Position numbers and translations under genes: made by a program
Assembly (NCBI GenBank): GCA_025933935.1
Contig: JAICYZ010000006.1
Location: forward strand, 1 to 42,594
Origin: Chitinophagaceae bacterium
GTDB lineage: Bacteria; Bacteroidota; Bacteroidia; Chitinophagales; Chitinophagaceae
Length of the DNA: 42,594 bases
Direction: 5' to 3'
Notes under the pieces: generated by a model
What the model saw: only the letters and a program-made list of their open reading frames with translations
What the model was told of the DNA's origin: nothing
Database searches by the model: none
In this document: one piece after another, positions 28,408 through 30,952 of the stretch
Layout of the letters: the number at the start of each line of letters is the position of its first letter
Numbering within the stretch: the stretch's first letter is position 1

Positions 28408-29730
28408 TTATCTTCTTCCTAATCCAGCCAGTTTTCCCATCGGCATTTTGTTCATCATCTTCATCATGGATTTCATCTGGTCAAATTGTTTGATAAATTG
28501 GTTCACATCAGCAATATCTTTTCCACTTCCCTTTGCAATACGCTGTTTCCGGCTGGGATTTATCAAATCCGGGTTGCGGCGTTCTTCCAAAGTCATTGAA
28601 TTAATCATCGCTTCAATTCCTTTAAAGGCATCGTCATTGATGTCAATGTCTTTTATTTGTTTTCCAACTCCCGGAATCATTCCCATCAGGTCTTTCAGGT
28701 TTCCCATCTTTTTTATCTGGTGAAGCTGTGTTTTAAAATCTTCAAAGTCAAACTGATTTTTACGAATTTTCTTTTCGAGCTTGGCAGCCTGCGCTTCGTC
28801 AAATTGCTCCTGTGCTTTTTCTACCAGGCTAACAATATCACCCATTCCCAAAATACGCTGCGCCATCCTCTCCGGATAAAACACATCGAGGGTTTCCATC
28901 TTTTCTCCACTGCTGACAAACTTGATCGGTTTATTTACCGTGTATTTTATGGAAATAGCTGCACCACCGCGGGTATCACCATCGAGTTTTGTAAGAACCA
29001 CCCCGGTATAATTCAATCGCTGATTGAACGCAGCTGCAGTATTCACCGCATCCTGGCCGGTCATGCTATCTACTACAAATAAAATTTCTTTTGGATTTAA
29101 AGCACTCTTAACATTCGCCACTTCCGTCATCATCACCTCATCAATGGCGAGTCGGCCGGCTGTATCAATAATAACTACATTTTTATTTTTTGATTTTGCT
29201 TCTTTCAAAGCATTCTGAGCGATTTCAACGACGTTTTTATTTTCAGGCTCGCTGTAAACTTCTACATGGATCTGTCCACCCAAAACTTTCAACTGTTCAA
29301 TTGCGGCAGGCCGATAAACGTCGCCCGCAACAAGTAGTGGCGATTTCCCTTTTTTCGTCTTCAGATAATTCGCCAGTTTTGCGCTAAAGGTTGTTTTACC
29401 ACTACCCTGCAAACCCGCTATTAAAATAATTGCCGGATTTCCACTAAGGTCCAAATCCGTTTCAACTCCACCCATCAAATCGGTTAATTCATCTTTTACG
29501 ATCTTAACCATCAATTGGCCTGGACTAACCGCGTTGATCACTTTTTCACCGGTAGCTTTTTCTTTGATGGTATCAGTAAATTCTTTTGCGATTTTATAGT
29601 TTACATCGGCATCGACGAGGGCACGACGAATATCTTTTACTGTGGAAGCGATATTTAATTCGGTAATTCTTCCTTGTCCTTTCAGGTTTTTAAACGCGGT
29701 ATCAAGCCGGTCGCTTAACGATTCAAACAT
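28408..29730 (-). CDS. ffh: Signal recognition particle GTPase Ffh (SRP54)
   Basis: The 440-residue protein binds signal peptides of nascent membrane and secreted proteins and delivers ribosomes to FtsY. The N domain (residues 1-85) starts MFESLSDRLDTAFKNLKGQG. The G domain has the P-loop GLQGSGKTTFSAKLA near residue 106, VVIIDTAGRL near 187 and VLTKLDGDTRGGAA near 247. The M domain (about 300-440) is Met-rich with the RNA-binding helix-loop RNPDLINPSRKQRIAKGSG and ends MGKLAGLGRR. A TAAATTTG box 69 bp before the start is a candidate promoter element. The gene is upstream of rpsP. Confidence 0.97.
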   Translation of the reverse strand: MFESLSDRLDTAFKNLKGQGRITELNIASTVKDIRRALVDADVNYKIAKEFTDTIKEKATGEKVINAVSPGQLMVKIVKDELTDLMGGVETDLDLSGNPAIILIAGLQGSGKTTFSAKLANYLKTKKGKSPLLVAGDVYRPAAIEQLKVLGGQIHVEVYSEPENKNVVEIAQNALKEAKSKNKNVVIIDTAGRLAIDEVMMTEVANVKSALNPKEILFVVDSMTGQDAVNTAAAFNQRLNYTGVVLTKLDGDTRGGAAISIKYTVNKPIKFVSSGEKMETLDVFYPERMAQRILGMGDIVSLVEKAQEQFDEAQAAKLEKKIRKNQFDFEDFKTQLHQIKKMGNLKDLMGMIPGVGKQIKDIDINDDAFKGIEAMINSMTLEERRNPDLINPSRKQRIAKGSGKDIADVNQFIKQFDQMKSMMKMMNKMPMGKLAGLGRR

Positions 29731-29799
29731 ATTACTGAGTAATTAAATTTTTTATAAAAACGATAAAAAAAGTGAACTGGATATATTCACTTAACATTG

Positions 29800-29807
29800 C
29801 AAATTTA
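29800..29807 (-). promoter_or_regulatory. Candidate -7 box (TAAATTTG) of ffh with leader hairpin
   Basis: TAAATTTG on minus fits TAnnTTTG and predicts a 5' leader of about 60 bases. Just downstream of the predicted start lies the inverted repeat AAGTGAA (29770-29776) / TTCACTT (29786-29792), which could fold in the leader or bind a protein. No clear -33 TTG is present. Confidence 0.4.
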
Positions 29808-29887
29808 CGAAAGTTGTATCTTTTTTTGAAAATACGAATTGTCCGAATTTGTTGCTTTACTGGGAAGATTTTAATAAAAATAATTGG

Positions 29888-29987
29888 TGGTCCCGCCAGG
29901 AATCGAACCTGGATCGGGACCTTCGGAAACTCTTATACTATCCCCGTCCGAACGGGTTCAGCCGGGCGGGCATTGTACTACGAGACA
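29888..29987 (-). pseudogene. tRNA-Arg(CCG) pseudogene with insertion in the D-loop
   Basis: Read on minus, this matches the intact tRNA-Arg at 30252-30323 through the anticodon loop (TTCCGAA, CCG anticodon) and the whole T arm and 3' acceptor strand. It differs in four ways. Position 1 is T instead of G, so pair 1-72 is lost. A 28-base insertion splits the D-loop between the two G residues. The 3' side of the anticodon stem reads GGTCC instead of GCTCC, removing the 30-40 pair. The variable loop also differs. CCA follows the discriminator base at 29885-29887, which the intact gene lacks. The combination argues against function. Confidence 0.8.
29943..29970. repeat. 28-bp GC-rich partly palindromic insertion in a tRNA D-loop
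   Basis: Compared with the intact tRNA copy, 28 extra bases lie between AATG and GATA of the D-loop (boundaries can shift by one base). About 79% are G or C, far above the surrounding DNA. The left half contains CCCGT-CCGA-ACGGG as a hairpin, and the whole insert can fold as CCCGTCC/GGGCGGG plus GAAC/GTTC with a bulge. Such a short palindrome recalls the palindromic repeat elements known from Rickettsia, though no kinship is claimed. Confidence 0.7.
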
Positions 29988-29988
29988 T

Positions 29989-30234
29989 CTATGGTTGAAA
30001 CATCTTGCTTTTCAGGAACCGTCGTCCGGCAGCTGTTTTAAAATATTTTTCTATTTCAATTGCTTCCCTTTCTGTATCAAACTCTTCAAAATAAACCATT
30101 TTAAAAGGAATATATGGGCGAATAGATTCTGTCATACCGGAATTATGCTGTTGCAAGCGAGTTGTTAAATTCTTACAGTGACCTTTGTAAAAATAATTAT
30201 GTTCAATACTTTTTAAAACATAAGCAAAAAACAT
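29989..30234 (-). CDS. GIY-YIG nuclease family protein (UvrC/URI-type domain)
   Basis: I start at the ATG at 30232-30234, giving 81 residues; the longer reading frame to 30309 would translate the tRNA gene and is not credible. The domain shows MFFAYVLKSIEHNYFYKGHC, where AYVL and YKG replace the GIY and YIG strands. NLTTRLQQHNSG follows with the catalytic-site Arg, and then FKMVYFEEFDTEREAIEIEK carries the metal-binding Glu region, and GRRFLK ends the fold. Free-standing GIY-YIG proteins of this size are DNA nucleases of mostly unknown role, related to homing endonucleases. The stop codon (29989-29991) lies one base from the tRNA pseudogene, and the start lies 17 bp after the intact tRNA, so it may be co-transcribed with the tRNA. 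Confidence 0.88.
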   Translation of the reverse strand: MFFAYVLKSIEHNYFYKGHCKNLTTRLQQHNSGMTESIRPYIPFKMVYFEEFDTEREAIEIEKYFKTAAGRRFLKSKMFQP

Positions 30235-30251
30235 AGGTTTGATAATTTTTG

Positions 30252-30323
30252 TGGTCCCGCCAGGAATCGAACCTGGATCTGGAGCTTCGGAAACTCTTAT
30301 ACTATCCATTGTACTACGAGACC
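30252..30323 (-). tRNA. tRNA-Arg, anticodon CCG
   Basis: The minus-strand sequence folds as a full cloverleaf. The acceptor GGTCTCG pairs with CGGGACC, the D stem is GTAC/GTAT with loop AATGGATA containing the GG pair, and the anticodon loop is TTCCGAA (CCG, reading arginine CGG codons). The T arm is CCAGG-TTCGATT-CCTGG and the discriminator is A. The anticodon stem has one A-C mismatch at 27-43. CCA is not encoded. It is followed at once by the GIY-YIG gene and then by a degenerate second copy. Confidence 0.92.
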
Positions 30324-30358
30324 AAACCTTTAACCTTTAAACAATTCACTTTAAACAA

Positions 30359-30952
30359 TCACGCCCCAAAAGCTGCAATATTACTTCCAAAAATTTTAAC
30401 GGCAATGGCAATTAATATGACGCCAAAAAATTTTCTGATTACTGACAATCCGCTTGGACCTAGAACCTTTTCTACCCAATTAAGTGACTTTAAAACAATA
30501 AAAATCACAATACAGTTAATCAAGATTCCGAGCAGGATATTAATGTCATGATAACCGGCTTTTAAAGACATAATCGTTGTCAGCGTTCCCGACCCTGCGA
30601 TTAAAGGAAACGCAATGGGAACCATACTTCCGCTTTTTGGATTGTTTTCCTGTTTAAAAAAATCAACTCCGAGGATCATTTCAAGGCCGATAATAAAAAT
30701 TACTATACTTCCGGCTACTGCAAAGGAATGTACATCAAGGCCGAGCAGGTTTAAAAATTGCTCACCTACAAATAAAAATAAAATCATCAAAGCGCCGGAA
30801 GCAATCGTTGCCTGAAGTGACCGTATTTGTCCACCCATTTTGTCTTTTAATGAAATCAAAACAGGAATAGATCCTAAAATATCAATTACCGCAAACAAAG
30901 TAAATGTGATAGTAATTAATTCGGTCTTTGAAATGTTGGCAATGCTTGGCAT
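30359..30952 (-). CDS. MarC family (UPF0056) integral membrane protein
   Basis: The 197-residue protein has about six transmembrane helices: TITFTLFAVIDILGSIPVLI (about 13-32), ASGALMILFLFVGEQFLNLL, SFAVAGSIVIFIIGLEMILG, then after a loop with the conserved PIAFPLIAGSGTLTTIMSL the remaining helices to GVILIAIAVKIFG. Both the D-x-x-G-x-x-P motif (DILGSIP) and the PLIAGPG-like motif (PLIAGSG) mark the MarC family. Its transport role is unknown; the old link to multiple antibiotic resistance in E. coli has been withdrawn. A strong promoter match precedes it. Confidence 0.92.
   Translation of the reverse strand: MPSIANISKTELITITFTLFAVIDILGSIPVLISLKDKMGGQIRSLQATIASGALMILFLFVGEQFLNLLGLDVHSFAVAGSIVIFIIGLEMILGVDFFKQENNPKSGSMVPIAFPLIAGSGTLTTIMSLKAGYHDINILLGILINCIVIFIVLKSLNWVEKVLGPSGLSVIRKFFGVILIAIAVKIFGSNIAAFGA

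Follow-up and report, generated by a model that had tools for sequence, protein, structure and literature searches.

Small GIY-YIG nuclease genes bracketed by copies of the same tRNA gene in Bacteroidota: a candidate minimal mobile element

A small GIY-YIG nuclease gene that lies between two copies of the same tRNA gene raises the question of whether these parts form a unit and, if so, how this unit came to reside there. The window examined here is the whole stretch of 42,594 nucleotides from a Chitinophagaceae bacterium (contig JAICYZ010000006.1 of assembly GCA_025933935.1, a draft that is 88% complete and consists of 452 contigs). On the minus strand of this window, marC is followed by tRNA-Arg(CCG), the GIY-YIG gene, a second tRNA-Arg copy and ffh, in this order:

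30359..30952, minus strand: marC, the upstream neighbour, which adjoins tRNA-Arg(CCG) in 16 loci and served as the anchor for calling occupied and empty sites
30251..30323, minus strand: intact tRNA-Arg(CCG), copy 1, on the 5' side of the nuclease gene (ARAGORN; Rfam RF00005, 59.2 bits, E=3.3e-12)
30235..30250, minus strand: spacer of 16 bp from the tRNA to the start codon, terminator-like site absent
29989..30234, minus strand: GIY-YIG nuclease gene, 81 aa (ATG at 30234, stop codon at 29991-29989; PF01541)
29887..29987, minus strand: second tRNA-Arg copy (remnant), identical to copy 1 at 70/73 positions, D-loop interrupted
29943..29970, minus strand: imperfectly palindromic 28-nt insert in the D-loop of the remnant, between what we take to be G18 and G19 in tRNA numbering
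28408..29730, minus strand: ffh, the downstream neighbour

This layout had been proposed from the sequence alone, and the succession of tRNA-Arg(CCG), GIY-YIG gene and second tRNA copy on one strand was borne out by ARAGORN, Rfam, the PF01541 match and the repeats. The second copy begins at 29987, one base past the nuclease stop codon, and the tRNA 5' ends are 336 bp apart, precisely as claimed. The nuclease gene does start shortly after the tRNA, but the gap is 16 bp and not 17 bp. A second tRNA copy exists as well, though it is less degenerate than claimed: with the insert set aside it is a full-length remnant that differs from the intact copy at only three of 73 positions. Neither ARAGORN nor Rfam called a tRNA in this second copy. 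The period of the unit is 336 bp when measured by the tRNA 5' sides and 364 bp when measured by the 3' sides, because the second copy contains the 28-nt insert. Direct repeats of 60 nt and 16 nt are present in register at the locus. The 336-bp unit contains no other plausible gene and thus no integrase or recombinase gene, and an Rfam search for group I and group II intron RNA in 29700-30400, with hits up to E=1, returned the tRNA, two matches to the tRNA-like mascRNA and nothing else. At the window locus, a promoter and terminator scan, which does not cover Bacteroidota promoters, yielded nothing above chance.

The profile match and the conserved residues place the window protein in the GIY-YIG superfamily. 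PF01541 matches residues 2-69 of 81 with 51.1 bits (cut-off 22.6, E=1.7e-13). Across 43 family rows, Y5, S9, Y16, G18, H30, N31 and E62 are invariant and R26 is nearly so; the window protein keeps Y5, Y16, G18, R26, H30, N31 and E62, and the catalytic positions are presumably found among these. The AlphaFold2 model of the window protein has a pLDDT of 90.6 and consists of one compact fold. Judging from the Pfam span and the model, the 81 residues represent the catalytic domain only and a separate DNA-binding region is absent; characterised homing enzymes have a separate DNA-binding part beside the catalytic domain. The nearest solved folds are UPF0213 proteins and Slx1, with Foldseek E-values that are 0.002 at best and thus all above 0.001. 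The family profile matches UPF0213 at 5e-14, and I-TevI is weakly similar. No match at E 0.01 was obtained for the window protein in NCBIfam, PHROGs or PADLOC. The nuclease is under purifying selection in close pairs, with dN/dS values of 0.09-0.39 in the eight distinct locus pairs that have a dS below 0.7. Pairs with higher dS, which we treated as saturated, reach dN/dS values of up to 1.17 among the 40 listed; for the full set of 139 retained pairs, the median is 0.65.

With the window protein as query, a match was found in 29 of 59 genomes, and a profile of 43 members matched in 251 of the 392 Bacteroidota genomes sampled. The genomic context was surveyed in 110 loci, namely the 30 best and 80 from the upper part of the matches listed, one per cluster, which makes this a high-scoring and not a random sample. 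A tRNA was present within 300 bp in 95 of these 110 high-scoring loci, with 21 tRNA species represented, and in all 95 cases the nearest tRNA was on the strand of the nuclease gene. In 82 loci the sequence extended for 900 bp or more on either side; a tRNA was located at 0-300 bp in 75 of these and at 301-900 bp in 4; the tRNAs at 0-300 bp were on the same strand 92 times and on the opposite strand once. As for the 15 loci in which no tRNA was called up to 300 bp, one has a tmRNA gene and four are true exceptions; several of the others have tRNA-like pieces in their flanks or are at contig ends, and the tRNA of L174 is at a greater distance. In the window's genome, all three short GIY-YIG frames are located beside tRNAs (Arg CCG, Arg CCT and Lys TTT), and both long ones are away from tRNAs. 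The third element of this genome (L005, G000:C423) is decayed: a tRNA-Lys is followed by a GIY-YIG frame that a TGA interrupts and, behind it, by a tRNA-Lys copy of 80% identity. No report of chromosomal tRNA-linked GIY-YIG elements was found in the openly licensed PMC literature, and the tRNA-linked family is apparently widespread and undescribed in the literature searched. Searches for relatives in phages and plasmids with two members as queries gave none, these being close-homologue searches that could miss distant carriers; likewise, in a close-homologue search of viral contigs, 41 stretches matched a pattern of alignment A3 and none was confirmed.

To what extent the tRNA on the far side of the gene is a general feature was assessed in 168 loci, which remained after 9 of 177 profile-hit loci had been removed as duplicates and which still include the duplicate pairs L007/L036 and L026/L208; the window's own locus is represented by none of its three copies in the linkage, insert and polarity counts from this set. 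A tRNA was present within 300 bp in 142 of the 168 loci, and in 133 of these 142 the same tRNA recurs on the far side of the gene, mostly as a partial copy. The short GIY-YIG genes beside tRNAs that the sequence-only reading had suggested looking for across Bacteroidota are, accordingly, bracketed by copies of the same tRNA. Where the intact tRNA is upstream of the gene, the remnant is its 3' part (66 versus 1), and an intact tRNA downstream is accompanied by a remnant of its 5' part (31 versus 1; Fisher P=2e-23 for these four main cells). Of the 137 remnant cases, 10 others reach both ends of the tRNA, 23 reach neither and 5 have no alignable remnant. The remnant thus corresponds to the tRNA half that is directed away from the nuclease, as expected from an insertion inside a tRNA gene of which one intact copy was restored. 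tRNA-integrating islands and phages leave an intact tRNA on one side and a remnant of it on the other; the loci described here share the regenerated tRNA and the far-end remnant and have no integrase gene. Tandem arrays repeat the nuclease together with the remnant. The largest array seen (L050, G017:C23:202500-212500) has 16 tandem GIY-YIG copies, 360 bp apart, behind a tRNA-Asp, with 15 remnants of the same 25-nt 3' part of this tRNA (nt 51-75).

The 28-nt insert in the remnant of the window also has counterparts, as 60 of 132 alignable remnants contain an insert of at least 8 nt. The inserts of at least 12 nt (n=59) are located in the T-loop in 29 cases, in the D-loop in 15, in the anticodon loop in 4 and elsewhere in 11, which places 48 of the 59 in tRNA loops. 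Many of them read as palindromes or as two tandem hairpins. When 54 unique inserts were compared with shuffled versions of themselves, 22 folded better than 95% of the shuffles and 32 did not; we call the inserts hairpin-like on the basis of those 22 and of the double stems seen by reading. Three hairpin types, set by our own rules on 37 rows with 14 unclassified ('other') remnants left out, require 3 changes on the nuclease tree versus 17.6 after shuffling and 11.9 after shuffling within family (0/500). The remnant is the sole match to the 28-nt insert pattern in the window's genome, and tRNA remnants account for 2 of 7 matches in G018 and 1 of 5 in G006. Given that the remnant comprises about 100 bp of sequence, these matches are strongly concentrated in it.

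The nuclease lineages were further compared with the identity of the linked tRNA and with the host family. On a quick tree of 163 nucleases, which is based on 75 columns and has many weak forks, the amino acid of the linked tRNA changes 30 times, compared to 92 times after shuffling and 80 times after shuffling within host family; none of 200 shuffles was as low as 30 under either scheme (138 and 136 labelled rows). The host family changes 80 times versus 115 after shuffling, again with 0/200 as low. Both factors therefore matter, tRNA identity much more than host family, and related nucleases sit on related tRNAs across different bacterial families.

A mobile unit should leave relatives with and without it, and relatives with one tRNA and no nuclease had been proposed as a check. 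The gene ffh was dropped as a synteny anchor for this comparison, since among 30 ffh loci compared (58 genomes with a match) tRNA-Arg(CCG) was found upstream in 2 only, namely in the window and in G014; marC served instead. In the window's genome and its relatives, tRNA-Arg(CCG) is located directly behind marC in 16 loci, of which 3 are occupied (the window's genome G000, G014 and G018) and 13 are empty, as judged with the window protein and the family profile over about 1.5 kb on each side where the contig allows. The occupied G018 and the empty G006 have both the marC upstream and the downstream flank in common, and the G006 sequence after the tRNA 3' end corresponds to the G018 sequence after the 3' end of the second copy. 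Because the flanks are continuous in this way, the difference between the two loci amounts to one nuclease gene plus one tRNA copy. A comparable result was obtained for a tRNA-Met locus that is present in 9 of the 10 genomes from one genus, which belongs to a different family of the phylum: with upstream flanks that are 75-78% identical, 5 of the 9 loci are occupied (one of them with three copies) and 4 are empty. Empty sites thus exist and homologues do occur near tRNAs, the opposite of either having been named as the outcome that would speak against the sequence-only reading. These comparisons of occupied and empty alleles are between species. Retention, loss and vertical descent can also yield occupied and empty species.

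In the occupied loci G018 and L047, the intact tRNA has the sequence that is most common at empty sites. The idea of a recoded rescue copy, as in cleave-and-rescue systems, is not supported, as no consistent tRNA difference was found between occupied and empty loci, L043 being a changed exception. At this locus the intact tRNA-Arg(CCG) beside the nuclease (2917-2989) is strongly changed in the anticodon arm and the T stem compared to its relatives, and these changes are largely present in its remnant too.

The present data show that the unit was gained or lost between relatives, that it is strongly tied to tRNA identity and that the tRNA copies are placed as expected after insertion with restoration. 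We favor, with a probability of roughly 0.6, the interpretation that the unit represents a minimal mobile element parasitic on tRNA genes, i.e. a homing-type selfish element and a chromosomal counterpart of the phage nuclease SegB. A standalone nuclease gene, a recurrent neighbouring target and empty alleles, as for a SegB-type system, were all found. The nuclease would recognise its own tRNA gene and cut it, the probable sites being the D-loop, the anticodon or the T-loop, in which the hairpin-like inserts are concentrated. Repair with an occupied copy as template would then install the nuclease together with tRNA sequence. The intact tRNA would be regenerated in the process and the host would remain unharmed, while the leftover tRNA copy would often be scarred by short hairpin-like inserts in its loops. 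Such scars would remove the cut site and lower the loss by recombination between the two copies. The selfish element that had been proposed from the sequence alone thus gains partial support from the empty sites and the bracketing, and we infer the cutting, the copying by repair and the use of the tRNA promoter. The gene would probably be expressed as part of the tRNA transcript, at least in loci that lack a terminator between the two. The idea of a tRNA promoter fits with the same-strand position of the nearest tRNA in 95/95 loci. In the case of tRNA-Met, the tRNA and the gene are separated by a stable hairpin with a T-run, which speaks against simple read-through at these loci; the consensus scan flagged only the duplicate behind the remnant. 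Several further points count against the homing interpretation, namely the presence of the catalytic domain alone with UPF0213 proteins and the structure-specific Slx1 as nearest structures, the clustering of host families on the nuclease tree, the lack of any phage, plasmid or viral relative as a vehicle in the close-homologue searches, and a clade of four loci without a tRNA. Moreover, as the intact tRNA is not recoded as a rule, the escape of the element from its own nuclease is unexplained, which also counts against homing.

The four loci without a tRNA (L215, L227, L246 and L256) form one clade in the quick tree (98% SH-aLRT). In three of them, the gene is located between inverted repeats of 12-14 bp, one pair having a mismatch, and these elements measure 272, 277 and 305 bp with two flanks that join as one reading frame. 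L215 interrupts a recombinase gene, whose two pieces, searched separately, correspond in Pfam to distinct portions of one N-terminal integrase domain. The flank pieces of L227 gave no match in Pfam, and we take the genes interrupted by L227 and L256 to encode four-helix-bundle-type proteins. Beside the fourth locus, there is a 95-bp hairpin with similar repeats and without a gene. This clade raises the possibility that such nucleases mobilise hairpin-ended DNA. The GIY-YIG protein would then be a structure-specific, transposase-like mover, tRNA genes would be favoured because their arms form DNA hairpins, and dispersed palindromes would be non-autonomous derivatives. The interrupted reading frames and the gene-less hairpin speak for this view, as do the hairpin types that follow the nuclease clades (3 changes versus 17.6 and 11.9), the 48/59 inserts in tRNA loops and the inclusion of Slx1 among the nearest folds. 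On the other hand, a hairpin that is inherited with the element would track the tree as well, type A and type B palindromes dispersed in genomes do not favour hairpin tips, palindromes occur in G008 and G012 (both incomplete) where no family member was found, and no terminal repeats were noticed at the tRNA-linked genes inspected by eye. We regard this view as unlikely. Equally speculative, and rather doubtful when taken as a whole, is a new one-gene transposable system, in which a bare, Slx1-like and structure-specific GIY-YIG nuclease would cut hairpin tips, tRNA and tmRNA genes would be hairpin targets that are split and restored, side lineages (elements of 270-305 bp) would have terminal inverted repeats and enter protein genes, and mobilised gene-less palindromes of 20-95 bp would be the non-autonomous partners that appear as scars in tRNA loops and as dispersed repeats.

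tRNA genes are classic attachment sites, and the unit could accordingly be a passenger or relic that was inserted by a recombinase acting in trans, with the nuclease as cargo. The intact tRNA on one side and the tRNA 3' part, down to 17-18 nt, on the other side would agree with this. We nevertheless consider such an origin improbable, since the 336-bp unit contains no recombinase gene, the remnants are either 5' or 3' parts with variable junctions, and the gene common to the loci is the nuclease, whose tree carries the tRNA preference. It is similarly improbable that the gene benefits the host, by amplifying tRNA copies or by countering tRNA-cutting toxins, and has spread mainly by descent. 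Tandem arrays, purifying selection in close pairs and the clustering of host families on the tree would fit with a host benefit, and SegB is reported to amplify the tRNA-segB segment and thereby escape a tRNA-cutting defence (PMC13096335). Yet the largest array repeats a part of tRNA-Asp (15 times nt 51-75) and not an intact tRNA, the presence of the gene is patchy even within a genus, and the window's own genome contains the decayed copy L005. Finally, the origin of the window from a fragmented and incomplete draft could raise the suspicion of an assembly error, an annotation artefact or chance. The same unit is present in G014, however, and the same arrangement recurs elsewhere in the phylum, including in the single-contig genomes G243 and G291, which makes an artefact untenable; the in-register repeats of 60 nt and 16 nt, together with the recurrence of the arrangement in 133 of 142 further loci linked to tRNAs, make chance unreasonable. 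The probability of such an explanation is practically negligible.

SegB is a free-standing homing endonuclease of T-even phages, phage-borne and larger than the nuclease described here, and it appears to be the closest functional parallel to the favored selfish element. In a survey of phages, SegB is described as a GIY-YIG nuclease encoded beside tRNA genes, with tandem amplification of tRNA and nuclease and without a reported tRNA isotype preference (PMC13096335). The gene position beside tRNAs and the tandem amplification are shared by the present family. In contrast to SegB in that survey, the nuclease lineages described here follow tRNA identity, and they further differ by their location in bacterial chromosomes, the bare catalytic domain, the split and restored tRNA genes and the scarred remnants. 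A standalone minimal GIY-YIG domain is also found in the prokaryotic Slx1-like proteins (PMC1564403). UPF0213/YhbQ-like proteins and Slx1 resemble the present nucleases in this respect and provide the closest solved structures; unlike these nucleases, they are not presented as mobile or tRNA-linked in the accessible part of PMC1564403. The resemblance to tRNA-integrating islands is limited to the intact tRNA plus remnant, whereas an integrase is lacking and the remnant can be a 5' or a 3' part. Short dispersed palindromes or double hairpins are known as REP/RAYT repeats, Rickettsia palindromic elements and mitochondrial double-hairpin elements. Like those, the palindromes encountered here are dispersed and some are located in long open frames; unlike those, they are concentrated in the loops of tRNA remnants, beside GIY-YIG genes and matched to nuclease clades.

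If the homing-type interpretation is correct, one-gene selfish units of about 340 bp inhabit tRNA genes across an entire phylum. With this size they would lie near the lower limit for a self-spreading element, and they may be among the smallest in bacteria. They would then offer a tractable system for the recognition of tRNA families by an 80-residue nuclease, for the invasion of an essential gene without host death, and for the origin of some short palindromic repeats.

Palindromes of 20-29 nt were also observed dispersed in L130-L161 and in G015, G009 and G028, several of them inside long open frames. Those in open frames are often 27 nt long, and a few have terminal direct repeats of 7-8 bp. 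The idea that palindromes generally insert at hairpin tips was not retained, as types A and B showed no tip preference (20 and 11 sites); a weak signal for type C (25 of 2000) came from sites that share repeated contexts. Among 59 genomes, palindromes were present in 18 of 20 versus 24 of 39 when compared with the presence of the family (P=0.03, relatedness uncorrected), which is a hint only; G008 and G012, the two incomplete genomes in which no family member was found, have palindromes as well. In G322, a tmRNA gene immediately precedes a family member (L185, 1124-1811), which has a partial repeat of the tmRNA 3' part behind it. For annotation, it should be noted that a frame opening within the tRNA can run into the nuclease gene; in the window, such a frame of 106 aa (29989-30309) opens inside the tRNA and continues into the nuclease, and it is an easy source of mis-started annotations.
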